Numbered from the stretch's first letter, positions 6,333 through 32,508 are shown. The stretch is DNA of 51,459 nucleotides from an uncultured Bacilli bacterium (GCA_944329425.1 CALVIG010000003.1:1-51459), one strand, 5' to 3'. Notes: generated from the letters alone by a model not told the origin. Numbers and translations are program-made.

Positions 6333-6361
6333 TTGATTATTATTTGAATATATAATAAAAT
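6333..6361 (+). promoter_or_regulatory. Promoter of the SRP RNA gene
   Basis: TTGATT (6333-6338) and TAAAAT (6356-6361) are 17 bases apart and place the start of transcription at about 6368, exactly the first base of the terminal helix of the SRP RNA. Confidence 0.6.
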
Positions 6362-6367
6362 AACATT

Positions 6368-6438
6368 GCACAACGAAAATGTTAGAACCAGGTCAGGGTT
6401 GAAAAACAGCAGCCTTAATAACCTCTTTTCGTGTGTGC
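6368..6438 (+). ncRNA. ffs: Small bacterial signal recognition particle RNA (4.5S type)
   Basis: The RNA scaffold of SRP, which with Ffh targets nascent membrane proteins. The core reads GGTCAGG, a short apical loop, then AGCAGCC, the conserved Ffh-binding domain with its symmetric and asymmetric internal loops. The 5' end GCACAACGAAAA pairs with the 3' end TTTTCGTGTGTGC to close one long hairpin of about 71 bases without an Alu domain. A T-rich tail (6439-6450) follows. Location between gyrA and tadA/dnaX matches the Bacillus scr region. Exact ends are inferred from pairing and the promoter. Confidence 0.9.
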
Positions 6439-6465
6439 TTTTATTTTATTTAATAAAGGTGTAAC

Positions 6466-17703: not shown

Positions 17704-18282
17704 GTGAAACATTTTAATAGAAAAATTAAAAATGCTTTACTCATTTTATTCATATGTTTAATAGCATTTATCGGTTTTTCAAAATCGGGAATATTGTTTT
17801 CTAGTAGTGGGAAAGATATTATAACTGTTTCTACCACGAAGAAGACGTTTGATCCGAATAATTATGTTGCGTCGGTTGCTGCAATAACAACAACTACAAC
17901 CACCACAACAACTACGACCACGACTACGACAACTTCTACAGTTAAATCTGTTGTTTCGAATTATAGTTGGTCAGGAGAGGTTTTGACAAAAAGTAAAGGT
18001 GTTGTAACGGGGCCGTCGGGTAAAGAAACTTATTACAATTTGGATATGACCAAGGTAGTTAGAGCTATGAGAAATGCTGGATATACAGAAGCTGAATATC
18101 CATATTGGATTAGAGAAGATGGCGTTAAAATGCTTGGACAGTACGTCATAGTTGCCGCAAATTACGAAATAAGGCCTAAGGGTACTATAATAGAAAGTTC
18201 TTTAGGAATGGCGATAGTTTGTGATACGGGTGGTTTTGCAAAGAAAAATCCTACTCAAATAGATATAGCGGTTACTTGGTAA
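17704..18282 (+). CDS. Membrane-anchored 3D-domain protein (YabE-like)
   Basis: The 192-residue protein has a basic N terminus and one membrane segment or signal anchor (about residues 12-28), an extracellular linker with 16 consecutive threonines (62-77) written in mixed ACA/ACC/ACG/ACT codons, and a C-terminal domain ending GMAIVCDTGGFAKKNPTQIDIAVTW. That ending, with PKGT before it, matches the double-psi barrel 3D domain (three conserved Asp) of YabE/Rpf-like and MltA-like cell-wall hydrolases. YabE holds this position between yabD and ksgA in Bacillus; here the G5 and DUF348 repeats are missing. GTG 17704 follows GAGGTG (17692-17697). Muralytic function is inferred. The Thr tract could span the wall and be glycosylated. 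Confidence 0.72.
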   Translation: MKHFNRKIKNALLILFICLIAFIGFSKSGILFSSSGKDIITVSTTKKTFDPNNYVASVAAITTTTTTTTTTTTTTTTSTVKSVVSNYSWSGEVLTKSKGVVTGPSGKETYYNLDMTKVVRAMRNAGYTEAEYPYWIREDGVKMLGQYVIVAANYEIRPKGTIIESSLGMAIVCDTGGFAKKNPTQIDIAVTW

Positions 18283-19975: not shown

Positions 19976-20182
19976 ATGATTGAAGATATAAAACGAAAAA
20001 TAGAAAGCCTTAAAGGAAAAAAAATAAAGCTTTACGTAGATATAGGAAGAAACAAAAGCGAAGTTTATGAAGGGCAAGTTCTTGAAACTTATAAAAACGT
20101 ATGGACTTTTAAAACAAATACCGACGTAAAGAGCTTTGGCTATTCAGATATTTTAATTAATACTGTTATTATAAGTTCATGA
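19976..20182 (+). CDS. veg: Veg family protein
   Basis: Short DUF1021/Veg protein; in Bacillus Veg stimulates biofilm formation by opposing SinR through an unclear mechanism. The 68-residue product has IKRKIESLKGKKIKLYVDIGRNKSEVYEGQVLETYKNVWTF and SFGYSDILINTV, which align with the Veg core (Lys/Arg-rich beta fold, SYSDILT motif). It lacks the C-terminal tail of the 86-residue Bacillus protein. AGGAG (19966-19970) is the ribosome-binding site, eight bases after yabG, so both may be co-transcribed. It ends with TGA inside a terminator hairpin. Confidence 0.88.
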   Translation: MIEDIKRKIESLKGKKIKLYVDIGRNKSEVYEGQVLETYKNVWTFKTNTDVKSFGYSDILINTVIISS

Positions 20183-20198
20183 TATATGAACTTTTTTT
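20173..20198 (+). terminator. Intrinsic terminator of veg
   Basis: Perfect 8-bp stem (20173-20180 with 20186-20193), 5-base loop, T run to 20198; the veg stop codon is inside the hairpin. Confidence 0.75.
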
Positions 20199-20208
20199 AT
20201 TGTGATTA

Positions 20209-20237
20209 TTGCTTTTTGCTCGTATTTATGATTAAAT
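20209..20237 (+). promoter_or_regulatory. Candidate promoter for the surface-protein operon
   Basis: TTGCTT (20209-20214) and TTAAAT (20232-20237) are 17 bases apart, and TG one base before the -10 helps a weak box. TATATT at 20245-20250 is an alternative -10 without a good partner. Confidence 0.4.
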
Positions 20238-20269: not shown

Positions 20270-23200
20270 ATGAACATGACTAAAACGGATTTTAAAAAAA
20301 GACTAAAAGATTGGTTTATTATTCAGAGAATAAGATTACTTAATTTTATGAAAGAACATAAATACATTTCTGCGTTTATTGGTGTTTTTTTAATGTCATG
20401 CGTAGTTGCTCTTGTGGTTTATGCATCAAATAATGATGAATATAATGGAAAAGTCAATGTATCTGCAAGTGTTGTTCAAAAAAGTGTATCATCTAATGAT
20501 GAAATAAAAAGCATAAAAAGTTTTAGTACGCTTGTTTATGATTTGTCTTATTCATTAAGCATCTCAGATTTACCGCAAGATGAAACCGAAGTAAGAGATG
20601 AGGTTATAATTGAAGCATCGTTTGATGCCAGTATAGATGCGGATTGGTTTGTTGCGGATCAAGAAGCTAACTATGATATATCGGAAAAAGATGGCAAAAA
20701 AATTCTAACCGTTACCATGTACCAAATAAGGGTAGGAGATACGATTAATAAACAATTATACCTAAAGGTTAAAAACATCCCTAACAATAAAGAGATTACA
20801 ACTAATTTTAAAATAAAAGAAGGTACTAGTGATTCTTTTAAAGACCTTGGAACCAAAACCGTTACTATTGAAAGCCAAAAAGTAGATTTAACGGCTAAGA
20901 TAGTGCCTGGATCAGCGTATAAATCAGACGATTATTCTGGGGGTAGGTATGCTCCTTTTGGAATAATAGTTGGTTTTGATAAATCTAGTTACCAAAGCAT
21001 GGAAGGACTTTACTTTGATGAAAATTTGGAATTAGTTTTGGAACCAATTCAAGAAGTAAATGGTGTCGTTTCTCAAATAGAATTAGAAAACAGTAATTCA
21101 AAGTATTTTGGTTTGTACGATAGAAGTAGTAATCTATTAAATGCTATGCCACATTATAAACAAGATTTTAGTCAATACTCTGTTTATAATTCTGGTACGG
21201 TTGAATCTTTAAATAAGTCTTTAGCAGGTGTTTCTGGAGTTGTTTCAGAGAATAAAAATCCAGACTTATACTTAATTGGAGATAAGGAAATAAGTTTAGA
21301 AGTTGGTGATACTTATACCGAATACGGTGTGGCTACAAAAGAAAATGGTTCGGCAACGTGTAAGAATAGCGATAGTTCTTGCAAAAGGATTATAAAAGAT
21401 GAATCTGGTTCTGAAATAAAAGAGACTGAAATTACTAGCAAAGAAGGAACGTATACTGTTAGTTATGAATATTTCACCCAAACAGGTTCTACTACTATTT
21501 TTAGGACCGTTAAAGTAAGCGCTAAAACGACAAAAGAAGTAAATGGTAATGTTTATGCTCTAAGAGGAAATAATAACATGACTATTTTAAAGGGCAGTGG
21601 GGTTTCTTATAAAGAATTAGGAATTAGTAAAAACGGGAAAATTTTACTAAATTATGATAGTGTAATTACTTATAATGATGAACCTGTTACTGACGTAGAT
21701 GAAAGCAAGGTAGGAGAATATAAGATAACGTATACAATAACTGATGATTCTAAAGAAGAATTACCAGAAGGGGGAACTGAAGAGCCAACAGAAGATGAAA
21801 ATTCTGATGAAACCGGTAATACGGATAACACATTTACTTTAATAAGGACAGTTAAGGTGGTAGATGCTAAATATACTAAAGCCCAAACCCTTAACGCAAA
21901 AACAATATACGCTCCGTCTGACGGTTCATTTAAAACTCCGATAGTATATTTAGATGATGAGGAAGTAGAATGCACAAGTAAAAATAATTGTTCAGTAAAA
22001 TATTATAATCCTACTACTGAAGAGGAAACTAGTATAAACAATAATGTTGCTGGAACTTACGTTGCAAAATATGAAATAAAAGATAAAAATGGTTTTGTAT
22101 TGAGGTCAACAAACACGGTTAATATTCAAACAAAATATAGTTTGGTGATAAAAGGAATAAAATCAGATGGTTCAATGACTCTGTATGGAGATAATTTTAT
22201 TGCACTTGGGTCATACTTTGTTACTGCAAAATCAAATCGTGAAGAAGGAATAACTTCAGACATAATTGTTAAGTTAAAAATAGGTAATGTTATATCTGAC
22301 AGTGTAATTAATGAAAATTATTCTAAGGGTATTAAAGAAAATAAACTAACGTTTAATACTGATACTGATGGCTCTCTTACCGAATTATCTAATTCTGACT
22401 TCTTGGCGTATGGTGAAGAAGCAATCTTAAGGTCAACGTTTAGTTATTCAAGTGATGGTGATGATAACATAAAAACGTTAACTACTACCGTTCCAATTGG
22501 TTTAGCTACAACGACAGCTTTCAATCCAACAGCACCATTTTATATGCTTGAGTATGGTGATGCTCAAAGTGCAGAGCCTTATTACATAAACGAAGAAGTT
22601 AAAGATAAATTAACTGAGGTTAAGTATTATGCGTGTGAAATGGACGAATCGAAAGCAGAATGTAATGAAGGAACAGAAAGGGTTTATGATTCTTTTGCTA
22701 CTTTATCTGATGATTTAAATAAAAATACGAAATTAAAATTAGCATATTTAACTTATACTTTAGAGGATATAAAACCTGGTACTAAAGTTGATTTCAGGGT
22801 TAGAGTAGGAACGAACGTTGGAAATCACGCAGGAGAAGTTAAACTTACATCGACCTCAACTTTTGAAGAAAAACAGGAAAATGGTCAGTATGAGACAAAA
22901 ACTATAACAAATACAAATAATGCTTCTGTTAATGTTACCGCGTTTAAAGCAAGAACAAAATTATTTGTTGATGGAAGTGAACAAGATATCATAATAAATG
23001 GTGCAAACACAAATAAATCAATTTGGTCTATATATCCTACGGTAACTTTACCAGCTGAAAAAGTTAACACTAATGTCGCTGGTATCCATGAACTTTCAGA
23101 AATTAGGATTACGGTAACTTTACCAGAGGGATTAAATTATGTATATAATGAAAACTATGATATTCCAACCGTAAACGGAAAAACTTTAACTTATGTTTTA

Positions 23201-24808
23201 AAAGGAAAGCAAATCAATGAATGGATTGATCCTACATACTTTGAAACAAGTTATGATATAAATATTCCTTCAGGAACGGAAAAAGAGGTAAGTGTTTTAA
23301 TACAAGCAACATCAACAACTGAAATCCAGGATGCCTCAACGGCTAGCTTAAGAACCACAACTAGAAAAATAACGTATCAAAATAACGAAATAATATCACA
23401 CGGTTTATACACTAAGAATACTGCGATTTCAAAAGAAACAAGCTTTGATGTAAATACCAAATTATATAATAATAGCAAAACCGATAAACAAAATCTAGAA
23501 ATTGTTACATTACTTCCTTATAATGACGTAAGTAACGAAGATTCTTATACGGGTTCTTATACAATTTCTAATTTACCGGCGGGAGCTTTATGTAGTACCA
23601 ATTTACCAACGTTAATTGCTGATAATGACAAATTAGTTTCTGACCAAGAGATTTCTTGGGAAGATTGTTCTAAGTATGAATCGGATGGTTATTTGGGAGT
23701 AACCGCAATAAAAGTAAACGGTATAAATTTAAAGAGTGGTCAAATTTATGATCAAAGTATTATTATTACGCCAACTGCTAACAAAACGGGAGACGTTTAT
23801 AACGTTAATTCATACTTAATAATGCCAGTTACTACTGAAGGTGCGTCAAAAAAACAAGTTATTAATTCGAAAAAATTAAAAGTTGAAGTAATTAGTAAGC
23901 AGATAACTGGAACGGTTTGGGAAGACTTTGATTCAAATGGTATTATGGATAATAGCGAAAAGAAAGTGTCTGGTGTAACTTTAAAATTATATGATGCATC
24001 AACTGATGAACTTATAAAAACAACAACGTCTGATGAGAAAGGCAAGTACAGTTTAACTGATTTAGAACCAGGAACTTATTATGTAGTAGCTGAATATAAC
24101 ACCGCAAAGTATGGTATATCTCCTTATCAAGTTACTCTTGATAAGTCAGTTACTTCATCATTTACTACTTTTGATGATAAGACGGAAGAAGACGATAAAG
24201 AAACAAAAGAAGTTGATGAAACTGAAGAAAATGAAGAAGAAAACGCCGAGGAACCAATAAGCGTAATTAGGACCGAAAACATAGAAATAACCGACAATAC
24301 TAGGACGGTTAGAAACATTAACTTAGGATTGGCACTAAGAAAAGTCTATACGGTAAAATTAAGAAAATATGTTACGCGAGCTATAACAACCAATAATTTA
24401 GGTGTTTCAACAATAAAAGAATATGGTAATGCAACTTTAGCTAAATTAGATGTAAAAGATATTAGTAATTTAAGTATAAAAGTTGTGTATACAATAGAAT
24501 TAGAAAATACAGGATATTATCCAGGTTACATATATGCTGTTAAAGATTATGTTCCAGATGGTATGGAGTTTAATCCTGATTATGAAGAAAACGCCGGTTG
24601 GGTGATGACTGATTATGGTTATTTAGAAAACGATTCTTTATTTGATGAATTAGTACAAGCTGGTGAGAAAAAGTATCTTACGGTTGCGTTTGATATTGTA
24701 AGAAAAGAAGCAGGTTCTTTTGTAAATTATGCTGAAGTAGAAGATGATGATTTACAAATCTTAGTTGTAGGTGGAAGTAAGAGCGAAGAAGGTGATAATA
24801 ATGAGTAA
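20270..24808 (+). CDS. Large membrane-anchored surface protein with Ig-like, SdrD_B and DUF11-like domains
   Basis: A 1512-residue extracellular protein. ATG 20270 is chosen for its TGGAGG site (20255-20260); an upstream extension would be unrelated. Residues 1-31 are basic and cytoplasmic, 33-54 form one membrane helix, and the rest is outside. Three DUF5011/Ig-like modules follow (about 328-417, 427-530 and 535-625; VGDTYTEYGV, GTYTVSYE, VGEYKITYTITD and RTVKV motifs), then long beta-rich repeats, an SdrD_B/Cna_B-type domain from about 1212 (GTVWEDFDSNGIMDNSEK, GKYSLTDLEPGTYYVVAEY), an acidic spacer (about 1305-1330) and a DUF11-like domain (ENTGYYPGYIYAVKDYVPDGM). There is no LPXTG. Cysteines come in close pairs. 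The ORF ends inside the next gene (8-base overlap), so both are coupled. A role in adhesion is inferred. Confidence 0.85.
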   Translation: MNMTKTDFKKRLKDWFIIQRIRLLNFMKEHKYISAFIGVFLMSCVVALVVYASNNDEYNGKVNVSASVVQKSVSSNDEIKSIKSFSTLVYDLSYSLSISDLPQDETEVRDEVIIEASFDASIDADWFVADQEANYDISEKDGKKILTVTMYQIRVGDTINKQLYLKVKNIPNNKEITTNFKIKEGTSDSFKDLGTKTVTIESQKVDLTAKIVPGSAYKSDDYSGGRYAPFGIIVGFDKSSYQSMEGLYFDENLELVLEPIQEVNGVVSQIELENSNSKYFGLYDRSSNLLNAMPHYKQDFSQYSVYNSGTVESLNKSLAGVSGVVSENKNPDLYLIGDKEISLEVGDTYTEYGVATKENGSATCKNSDSSCKRIIKDESGSEIKETEITSKEGTYTVSYEYFTQTGSTTIFRTVKVSAKTTKEVNGNVYALRGNNNMTILKGSGVSYKELGISKNGKILLNYDSVITYNDEPVTDVDESKVGEYKITYTITDDSKEELPEGGTEEPTEDENSDETGNTDNTFTLIRTVKVVDAKYTKAQTLNAKTIYAPSDGSFKTPIVYLDDEEVECTSKNNCSVKYYNPTTEEETSINNNVAGTYVAKYEIKDKNGFVLRSTNTVNIQTKYSLVIKGIKSDGSMTLYGDNFIALGSYFVTAKSNREEGITSDIIVKLKIGNVISDSVINENYSKGIKENKLTFNTDTDGSLTELSNSDFLAYGEEAILRSTFSYSSDGDDNIKTLTTTVPIGLATTTAFNPTAPFYMLEYGDAQSAEPYYINEEVKDKLTEVKYYACEMDESKAECNEGTERVYDSFATLSDDLNKNTKLKLAYLTYTLEDIKPGTKVDFRVRVGTNVGNHAGEVKLTSTSTFEEKQENGQYETKTITNTNNASVNVTAFKARTKLFVDGSEQDIIINGANTNKSIWSIYPTVTLPAEKVNTNVAGIHELSEIRITVTLPEGLNYVYNENYDIPTVNGKTLTYVLKGKQINEWIDPTYFETSYDINIPSGTEKEVSVLIQATSTTEIQDASTASLRTTTRKITYQNNEIISHGLYTKNTAISKETSFDVNTKLYNNSKTDKQNLEIVTLLPYNDVSNEDSYTGSYTISNLPAGALCSTNLPTLIADNDKLVSDQEISWEDCSKYESDGYLGVTAIKVNGINLKSGQIYDQSIIITPTANKTGDVYNVNSYLIMPVTTEGASKKQVINSKKLKVEVISKQITGTVWEDFDSNGIMDNSEKKVSGVTLKLYDASTDELIKTTTSDEKGKYSLTDLEPGTYYVVAEYNTAKYGISPYQVTLDKSVTSSFTTFDDKTEEDDKETKEVDETEENEEENAEEPISVIRTENIEITDNTRTVRNINLGLALRKVYTVKLRKYVTRAITTNNLGVSTIKEYGNATLAKLDVKDISNLSIKVVYTIELENTGYYPGYIYAVKDYVPDGMEFNPDYEENAGWVMTDYGYLENDSLFDELVQAGEKKYLTVAFDIVRKEAGSFVNYAEVEDDDLQILVVGGSKSEEGDNNE

Positions 24809-27062
24809 TAAATTAATAAAAAATTTAAGCTTAATTTTCGTAATGTTAATAACCTTCTTTGGTTTTACTAATAATGTCTTAGGTGCTGAAAAAGTTAGAA
24901 CTAGAGCAATTTATCCAAAACCTTACAACGAAATTTACTTTACCATGAATAAAATAAAAAATGGTTCAACAGGAACTCATACTTTGAATACCGGAATTTA
25001 TACAATTAACGGAAGGCATGCTTATTGTATAGAACCAGGAGTTGAGATAAAAGGAACTAGTGGATATATATCAAGCAATGGTAAATCATTAAGTTCATAT
25101 ACCGGTGGTTACTTTACTAAAGACACTGGAAGTTGGCAGTTCGTGGCAAATGATACTGGTACTGATAACGATAGAAGAAAGTTAATATCATATATTTTAA
25201 CATTTGCACAAAACGAGGGTAACATTGCTGAAGGTACTTATAATAATCCTAACTGGTCAAATATTGCAAAAGATATAGCAAAAAGATATCAAACAAGTAA
25301 ATTAAGTAACACGTATAAAATATTTGCGGCTCAAGGGATGATTTGGGAAGTTGTTGTAGGAGAAAGAAAAAGTTTTAACCACGAATGGCCAGAGTATGGT
25401 CCTACTTGTAGCTTTTATAACGTTATAAATGGTAAAAATAATTGTAATAAAGCTAATACAACTGATATAAAAAACGAATATAATCGAATTGTAAGTGCAA
25501 TACAAAATTCTTTTTATAAAGCGCCTGGAGAATCAAGTGGTGGAAAAATATTTAAACCAGGTGGTTCTGAAAACGTTGTACCTTTATCTTGGGATGCTAC
25601 TAAGAAAAAATACACTCTAACAATTTATGATACTAATTTTAAATATTGGGAAGTTATTAAGTCAACAAATGCAACTTCTGCGGGATTAGAAGTTTCAATC
25701 GGCTCAAATTATATAACAATTTCAAGTAGTGACCCTATTAGTCAAGATGCTGCAAAACGTGTTGGAATTAAAATATATAATAAGAATAATAATGATTCAA
25801 CGGTTTACATCGATAGTAATTTGCAAGACGTGGTTGTTCTTGGTGGCGCAACCAGGGAATTATACATAAAAGTATATACTCCTAAATATCAAATTAAGAT
25901 AAATAAAAAAGCAGAATTAGATGGCAAAACATTAAGTGGCGCAAAGTTTAATGTGTGTACTAATAGTTCATGTACCAACGTATTAGGTACCATAACAACG
26001 GGTAGTGATGGTACGGCTGTATATAAAAATATTCCGTCACCTGGAACATATTATGTAAAAGAAATAGAAGCTCCGGACGGATATGAATTAGATCCTACTC
26101 CGCATGCAGTAACTGTTACTTCGTCAAATGTTGCTGGTTCAACTAGTTATGGTTCAATTAATATTAGTGATAAAAACAAAGAATTTAATTTGACAAAATT
26201 GTCTGTGGACGAAGATGGTAATTCCGTAATTTTGGATGATGGTTGTGGTACCGATAATTATACGGGCCCAGAATTTGAAATCAAAGAAAATGGTAATAGT
26301 TTGTATTTCAAGGAATTAAGTCCTGGTGTATATGATTATGCAAGTAAAGAAACTGAAGGTGCGGTAACAAAGTTAAAAACATGTAAAGGTAAACTTAAAG
26401 TTTATACTTTGCCAAATTGTAGTTATACAATTACCGAAACTAAAGCCCCAGAAGGTCTTACTTTACCTTCAAATCCAACTAAAACAATTAACGTATGTGG
26501 TTCCGACAAAAACGTTTCTTTTACCAATGGATTTGCTGGACTTGAATTTCAAAAGAAGGATGAAGATGGAAACTTCATATCTGGAGGTAAATTCTCTTTA
26601 CAAAAGAAAGAAAATAACGTTTATAAAGACGTTTTATTGAAAGAAGTAGGAGAAGGTTCTTACGTTTATGACACAAATTTAAAAGAAACTGATGAAGGTG
26701 CAACATACATAATAACTACTACTGATGGTGAACCGGAAGGTGAGCAAAAAGGAATAGCTAGAATTACTAATCTTCCTCCTGGAGAATATAGAATTTCCGA
26801 AAAGGAAGCTCCAGAAGATTTTGAACTTATAGAAGATAAAGATTCTAAAGCTCTAGTAACCATAAAAGATAGTGATAAAGGTGATTATTATTTAGTTGAA
26901 ATGATCGACCAAAAAATTAATAAAAATGGTAGTGAAGCATCAGCTGAATTAGTTGTAACCATCACTACTGGTAGAAACGTTCCAAACTACGTTTTGATTA
27001 TTTCCGTATTATCAGTATTATTAATAATAGCGATAATATTAAGAAAAAGAATAAAAAAATAG
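24801..27062 (+). CDS. Thioester-domain and Cna_B-domain surface adhesin
   Basis: The 753-residue protein has a signal peptide (cleavage likely after LGA, residue 29), then a thioester (TQXA-like) domain: Cys76 in AYCIEPG and Gln178 in AAQGMIWEV are the residues expected to form the internal Cys-Gln thioester that lets such adhesins bond covalently to host amines. Three Cna_B/SpaA domains follow (about 360-450, 460-578 and 581-705), each with a YVKEIEAPDGY, YTITETKAPEGL or YRISEKEAPEDF motif carrying the isopeptide Glu. A membrane helix (about 729-747) and the tail RKRIKK end the protein, without a canonical LPXTG. ATG 24801 follows GGTGAT (24791-24796) and overlaps the upstream gene by 8 bases. 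Thioester and isopeptide bonds are inferred from the motifs. Confidence 0.86.
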   Translation: MSNKLIKNLSLIFVMLITFFGFTNNVLGAEKVRTRAIYPKPYNEIYFTMNKIKNGSTGTHTLNTGIYTINGRHAYCIEPGVEIKGTSGYISSNGKSLSSYTGGYFTKDTGSWQFVANDTGTDNDRRKLISYILTFAQNEGNIAEGTYNNPNWSNIAKDIAKRYQTSKLSNTYKIFAAQGMIWEVVVGERKSFNHEWPEYGPTCSFYNVINGKNNCNKANTTDIKNEYNRIVSAIQNSFYKAPGESSGGKIFKPGGSENVVPLSWDATKKKYTLTIYDTNFKYWEVIKSTNATSAGLEVSIGSNYITISSSDPISQDAAKRVGIKIYNKNNNDSTVYIDSNLQDVVVLGGATRELYIKVYTPKYQIKINKKAELDGKTLSGAKFNVCTNSSCTNVLGTITTGSDGTAVYKNIPSPGTYYVKEIEAPDGYELDPTPHAVTVTSSNVAGSTSYGSINISDKNKEFNLTKLSVDEDGNSVILDDGCGTDNYTGPEFEIKENGNSLYFKELSPGVYDYASKETEGAVTKLKTCKGKLKVYTLPNCSYTITETKAPEGLTLPSNPTKTINVCGSDKNVSFTNGFAGLEFQKKDEDGNFISGGKFSLQKKENNVYKDVLLKEVGEGSYVYDTNLKETDEGATYIITTTDGEPEGEQKGIARITNLPPGEYRISEKEAPEDFELIEDKDSKALVTIKDSDKGDYYLVEMIDQKINKNGSEASAELVVTITTGRNVPNYVLIISVLSVLLIIAIILRKRIKK

Positions 27063-32345: not shown

Positions 32346-32446
32346 AATCACTGTTTTAAACAGGGTTATATAGTACCAAAGACAGTAGGAGCATATATGC
32401 GTAACTTATTCCTACCGAGGGCAATAAATTCATATTATGATTTTAG
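32346..32446 (+). ncRNA. Ribosomal protein L10 leader RNA
   Basis: The leader before rplJ contains GACAGTAGGAGC (32381-32392) and CCTACCGAGG (32411-32420), which pair and carry the conserved L10(L12)4-binding kink of the Bacillota L10 leader. A small CTGTTTTAAACAG hairpin (32351-32363) lies upstream. Binding of L10-L7/L12 should favour the downstream attenuator hairpin, a known form of feedback. Ends are approximate. Confidence 0.75.
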
Positions 32447-32476
32447 GGTCTTCATGTCTTGGTGAAGACCTTTTTA
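32447..32476 (+). terminator. Attenuator in the rplJ leader
   Basis: 8-bp stem GGTCTTCA (32447-32454) with TGAAGACC (32463-32470), 8-base loop, then five T. It lies 33 bases before rplJ, between promoter and gene, so it must be regulated. An alternative GGTCTTCACC pairing within the loop region may act as anti-terminator. Confidence 0.8.
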
Positions 32477-32508
32477 AGGTACTTATTACTAAAGAAGGAG
32501 GGACAAAC

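Follow-up and report, generated by a model that had tools for sequence, protein, structure and literature searches.

Three motifs mark thioester domains (TEDs): [YFL]C followed by a hydrophobic and a hydrophilic residue; a weak motif of the form hydrophobic-Q-hydrophilic-hydrophobic-hydrophobic, whose glutamine forms the bond; and a helical TQxxPhiW motif, whose glutamine and tryptophan are dispensable for the bond (PMC4450167, PMC6194298). BaTIE of Bacillus anthracis (6fwv) has a signal peptide, a class II TED, three CnaB domains and an LPATG signal. The TIE protein p34 of the Bacillus subtilis plasmid pLS20 is also of class II (YCID), with three CnaB domains and without LPXTG, and conjugation requires its cysteine (PMC8092201). 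The staphylococcal MSCRAMMs SdrD and UafA have domains in the order N2-N3-B, and sortase-assembled pili of the SpaA/EbpB type contain CnaB/SpaA domains. Here we analysed computationally a stretch of 51,459 nucleotides from an uncultured Bacilli bacterium (GCA_944329425.1, CALVIG010000003.1:1-51459; the window), in which two genes, P1 and P2, resemble parts of these systems. P1 (20270-24808, plus strand) encodes an all-beta surface protein of 1512 residues and P2 (24801-27062, plus strand) a class II TIE adhesin of 753 residues. The two genes are translationally coupled in an operon that lies between veg and spoVG: their open reading frames share eight bases (ATGAGTAA, 24801-24808), and a Shine-Dalgarno-like GAAGGTG (24788-24794) lies 6 bases 5' of the P2 start. 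A preliminary description of the sequence had proposed two coupled genes at this place, and their coordinates, lengths, VEG and SpoVG neighbours and coupling were all reproduced. We consider it probable that the pair is a bicistronic surface-attachment cassette, in which a BaTIE-like P2 with a Cys76-Gln342 thioester and an SdrD-like P1 act as one functional unit.

P2 has one N-terminal and one C-terminal hydrophobic segment and is laid out as a signal peptide, a thioester domain, three CnaB domains and a C-terminal transmembrane segment. The TED spans residues 30-360 (24888-25880, plus strand), where the Pfam TED match exceeds the family cut-off (E 4e-6) and SaTIE-TED (6fx6) is matched with E 1.4e-5. 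Residues 361-706 (25881-26918, plus strand) comprise three Pfam SpaA stretches that carry the isopeptide-type lysines and glutamates of CnaB domains, with Lys369/466/585, Glu421/546/667 and Asn576 invariant in an alignment of 17. A profile search of PDB sequences with P2 found BaTIE with E 4.6e-17 and SaTIE-TED with E 9e-6; the profile search alone succeeded, a single-sequence PDB search with the TED giving no match. In the structural model (mean pLDDT, the predicted local distance difference test, 77.8), we observe strand 72-76, helices 168-185 and 221-238, a beta region at 258-325 and strands 334-338 and 344-347, which as modelled is the order of a class II TED with a beta-sandwich inserted after helix alpha3 and before the final two strands. 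Foldseek returned BaTIE as the best match of the model (E 4e-24), and BaTIE is the best match of P2 residues 32-705 by sequence profile and by fold. We assign P2 to the class II TIE proteins, the thioester itself being predicted from motifs and model. The preliminary description, which had read P2 as a thioester adhesin with three Cna_B domains and had proposed a structure prediction of residues 30-360, is well supported here: TED family and BaTIE-like fold agree with it, and all three TED motifs occur in every intact homologue.

The bond-forming residues can be assigned from these motifs. YCIE, within YCIEPG, fits the [YFL]C motif, and its Cys76 (codon 25026-25028, plus strand) is invariant in the 17 intact P2 homologues, in keeping with the role of thioester cysteine that it had been given. 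The earlier choice of Gln178 (codon 25332-25334, plus strand) as its partner does not hold. AAQGMIW is an [AT]Q variant of the central helical TQxxPhiW and sits in helix 168-185 of the P2 model; this is the third TED motif, with a dispensable glutamine (PMC4450167, PMC6194298), and both its motif class and its position in a helix led us to reject Gln178. Gln342 (codon 25824-25826, plus strand), 266 residues from Cys76 in the sequence, is instead the likely bond partner. LQDVV, within NLQDVV, fits the late-strand motif of the bond glutamine and directly precedes strand 344-347, and a motif of this PhiQzPhiPhi type is present in 17/17 TED sequences: a pattern search recovered the glutamine in 16 of the 17 homologues, and in the 17th (L069) it was recognised by eye, as YPQATARG. 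Automatic alignments displace Gln342 by one residue in some rows, and it is consequently missing from lists of invariant columns. The proximity of Cys76 and Gln178, proposed earlier as a test, is non-discriminating, because in solved TEDs the TQxxPhiW glutamine adjoins the thioester yet does not form it. Within P2 it is the TED that is conserved least (mean identity 0.30), as would fit a protein that has lost its thioester chemistry and serves only as a structural stalk; however, Cys76, Gln178 and Trp182 are invariant and all homologues keep a glutamine at the position of Gln342 while identity elsewhere falls as low as 17%, and we regard such a loss as highly improbable.

We infer that P2 would be exported and fold into a BaTIE-like rod, with the class II thioester domain atop three CnaB domains and an internal thioester linking Cys76 to Gln342, and that, with its C-terminal membrane segment keeping it in the envelope, it would bond covalently to a target amine in the gut, on the host, in mucus or on a neighbouring cell. 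The similarity to pLS20 p34 raises an alternative, in which the thioester would be directed at other bacteria (sister cells or partners), like that of the pLS20 protein in mating, and not at host or mucus. p34 shares with P2 its class, its three CnaB domains and the absence of LPXTG, and conjugation depends on the p34 cysteine (PMC8092201), but it is a plasmid-borne conjugation gene product whose single predicted transmembrane helix is N-terminal, whereas in the window P1 and P2 are part of a conserved block of the chromosome and not of a conjugation operon. We judge a bacterial target unlikely.

The means by which P2 would be held in the envelope is suggested by its tail, residues 715-753 (26943-27059, plus strand), which consists of AELVVTITTGRNVPNY, a transmembrane helix and a basic end. 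Aligning 22 P2-type tails from three genera, we obtained the consensus AEL(I/V)xxIxTG(R/Q)x4Y, with A, E, I, T, G and Y invariant and the conserved T-G followed by a hydrophobic segment and a basic end. Unlike BaTIE with its LPATG, P2 has neither LPXTG nor a known variant in its tail, which reads TITTGR, and L-P occurs in 0/22 tails. The tail looks like a sorting signal minus L-P; alternatively, it may be a plain membrane anchor. In contrast to the sortase-assembled pili, the P1-P2 cluster has no dedicated sortase gene, the three sortases of the genome being encoded on other contigs. Among 193 genomes of the family, strong matches to the tail are confined to three genera, with a weaker one in a fourth (G172, E 3.5e-6); in 392 genomes sampled from the phylum there were 0 matches at E 1e-4 or better, and class- and phylum-wide searches gave nothing strong beyond the family (E 1e-4 or weaker). 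A class-B-like sortase occurs in 156 of the 193 family genomes and the tail in few, so its presence says little about the tail, and as a dedicated enzyme it was rejected as too widespread. We also discarded the NVQTG of Clostridioides difficile CbpA as a precedent, since SrtB leaves NVQTG peptides uncut (PMC4155245), and a protein of 724 residues on contig C5 of the same genome (E 9e-4), which ends in NPNTSDD. On contig C5 there is also a second TED protein (G000:C5:2357-4298, L036; 482 residues), which like P2 scores over the Pfam cut-off and differs in having an LPNTG tail; its gene overlaps a small sortase gene and adjoins HU. A further sortase-like frame, at G000:C4:28072-28881, is broken by two TAA stops and is probably a pseudogene.

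The partner protein P1 contains three Bact_surface_Ig-like stretches and an SdrD_B domain by Pfam, in line with the Ig-like and SdrD_B domains described before, and its residues 330-1512 are all beta in the model. Residues 893-1210 (22946-23899, plus strand) form two Ig-like domains arranged as N2-N3 of SdrD and UafA, matching SdrD (10ps) with Z 15.6 and a root-mean-square deviation (rmsd) of 10.7 over 321 residues, and UafA (3irp) with Z 15.4 and rmsd 13.4 over 332. The longer region 893-1359 follows the N2-N3-B order of both proteins (Z 14.3-15.6, rmsd 10.7-13.4 over 321-339 residues). The SdrD_B domain lies at residues 1212-1317 (23903-24220, plus strand; PF17210, E 1.1e-16), and residues 1330-1502 (24257-24775, plus strand), which match no Pfam family, are the most conserved domain of P1, with a mean pairwise identity of 0.68. 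P1 differs from the staphylococcal proteins in its very low sequence identity, in the absence of a C-terminal anchor and in the conserved MSCRAMM motif, for which a search of P1 with TYTFTDYVD-like patterns gave no match. We know of no coupled SdrD-like partner gene described for BaTIE. The preliminary description had called P1 N-terminally anchored, and a single hydrophobic segment is indeed N-terminal (residues 30-55, 20357-20434, plus strand; hydropathy 2.5), no C-terminal hydrophobic segment or wall anchor being found; this membrane segment or long signal peptide ends, however, in V-Y-A, where signal peptidase could cut. It may be a cleavable signal peptide rather than an anchor, because the V-x-A is conserved in the genus and P1-type proteins of other genera appear to have ordinary signal peptides. 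The two-part appendage or attachment complex that had been suggested from the opposite membrane anchors of the two proteins is accordingly only a hypothesis. In one species (genome G001, approximately L060:9160-9324), P1 contains a type I dockerin (Pfam E 7e-12) at residues 1288-1341, between SdrD_B and the last domain, which suggests cohesin-mediated docking.

Following the co-occurrence check proposed in the preliminary description, we find the pair in each of the 18 genus genomes, and it lies at veg-spoVG/yabP wherever contigs reach; in the 17/17 related genomes the pair, or the part held on the contig, stands between veg and spoVG/yabP. This genus-wide occurrence exceeds chance. Outside the genus, spoVG matched eleven other genera of the family, nine of them examinable for the veg/spoVG neighbourhood: seven have yabG-veg-spoVG with veg and spoVG adjacent and lack the pair; of the remaining two, L184 differs in its upstream neighbour and L190 is without veg and yabG. 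Within the genus, spoVG is missing from L051 (G006) and L053 (G008), where yabP is directly 3' of P2, and in G014 another copy of spoVG occurs at a different place.

Upon comparing trees of the two genes with those of their flanks, we find that P1 and P2 each split into two long-separated types, the deep branch being fully supported in both trees, and that both group L048 with L049. This grouping is rejected by the upstream flank (ksgA, yabG, tatD; approximately unbiased (AU) test, p 2.7e-5) and by the downstream flank (yabP to sigH; AU p 6.7e-6), both of which group L047 with L049 with full support, a clade rejected in turn by P1 (p 4e-44) and P2 (p 1.4e-5); the tested clades were picked after the trees were viewed, so that the p-values carry less weight, while the agreement of the flanks is unaffected. 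With flank distances removed, P1 and P2 distances still correlate (partial r 0.81 and 0.96 within the two types). Since the P1 and P2 trees contradict both flanks alike, the simplest reading seems to be that the two genes were exchanged together at a fixed site, as a cassette. Such joint swapping suggests that the proteins work together, and P1, a giant SdrD-like surface protein with multiple Ig domains that would be translated from one mRNA with P2, would form a single functional unit with it.

Similar pairs exist in two further genera, where TED proteins with the P2-type tail adjoin P1-type proteins at unrelated loci; the two genes are directly adjacent in L109 and L110 and separated by one small gene in L105. 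Together with the genus-wide co-occurrence and the joint exchange, these pairs agree with the coupled unit of the preliminary description. The part of P1 common to other genera is its C-terminal half, residues about 950-1520. In two other genera of the family we also observe several giant surface proteins of up to ~4,800 residues with the same C-terminal tail (G078, L110 and L153; G211, L151; G144, L154 and L155), often beside a small protein of 200-250 residues, and in genus g125 a P1-type protein (L105:4740-10415) includes a ChW (clostridial hydrophobic W) domain close to the C-terminus.

Two independent adhesins, placed behind one promoter for dosage or regulation, making no contact and binding different targets, are a possible but less favoured explanation. 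Each protein resembles a complete known adhesin by fold, P2 that of BaTIE and P1 those of SdrD/UafA; against this stand the joint exchange, the tight distance correlation and the recurrence of adjacent P1-type and TED-type genes in other genera, which fit cooperation yet do not require contact. The favoured reading itself has points against it: adhesins free of contact may also be co-inherited; the P2 model has a confidence below 50 at TED residues 108-122 and 141-167; and its superposition on BaTIE (VIA; Z 14.1, 459 residues aligned, model residues 32-705) has a large rmsd of 14.6, though one expected of a flexible multi-domain rod. A stronger form of cooperation, in which P1 and P2 of one cell or of adjacent cells become covalently linked, either through the P2 thioester or by a sortase that acts on the AELxxxIxTG(R/Q) tail, appears very unlikely to us; if true, the two proteins would by themselves make up an attachment structure held together by chemical crosslinks, and the correlated divergence of TED and P1 and the joint exchange would reflect matched partners.

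Candidate transcription signals surround the operon. A SigA-like promoter candidate (20209-20237, plus strand), with TTGCTT at 20209-20214, a spacing of 17 nt, TTAAAT at 20232-20237 and a TG before it, is conserved in 14 aligned genus sequences from 14 species. A terminator-like hairpin followed by a T run lies at the veg stop codon (20173-20193, plus strand; -6.8 kcal/mol, z -3.1) and was present in 10/10 genus sequences folded, with little covariation; a second lies 3' of P2 (27053-27083, plus strand; -12 kcal/mol, z -4.5). These candidates rest on conservation and folding, because a consensus scan for promoters and terminators listed neither the element nor the hairpins, the veg-side one falling under its GC threshold for terminators. 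P1 and P2 are likely transcribed independently of their neighbours. The signals also bear on a possible role at the spore surface, to which the neighbours yabG, veg, spoVG, yabP and yabQ (all identified by Pfam) and the presence of Spo0A in 18/18 genus genomes would point. Yet the conserved upstream element is SigA-like, hairpins flank the pair, other genera keep the neighbours without it, and similar pairs occur elsewhere among unrelated genes; a spore-surface location is accordingly a remote prospect in our view.

The host genome measures 1.1 Mb in 18 contigs. By taxonomy records the genus includes 'Candidatus Aphodocola excrementigallinarum' and gut metagenome-assembled genomes, and we take it to belong to GTDB order RF39, family UBA660. 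A PHROGs search for a phage origin gave no match. Elsewhere in the window, an extracellular protein encoded 5' of ksgA (17704-18282), a conserved neighbour in the genus, has a run of ~17 threonines after a membrane segment; Rfam identifies a small signal recognition particle (SRP) RNA at 6358-6454 and a ribosomal protein L10 leader at 32358-32486, and a tRNA search of the window found none.

A TIE adhesin in a gut Firmicute is the ordinary part of these findings; less ordinary are the genus-wide fixation at one site, the exchange as a two-gene cassette, the new tail and the recurrent pairing with an SdrD-like giant. They extend covalent thioester adhesins to uncultured gut Bacilli with tiny genomes, in which such an adhesin is kept genus-wide at a fixed site, seems to have been exchanged between species as one cassette with its partner gene, and carries a conserved non-LPXTG C-terminal signature. 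The residue to mutate is corrected to Gln342, with Gln178 as the control. If P1 and P2 cooperate, the pair would provide a compact model of how a gut commensal could keep a covalent hold.

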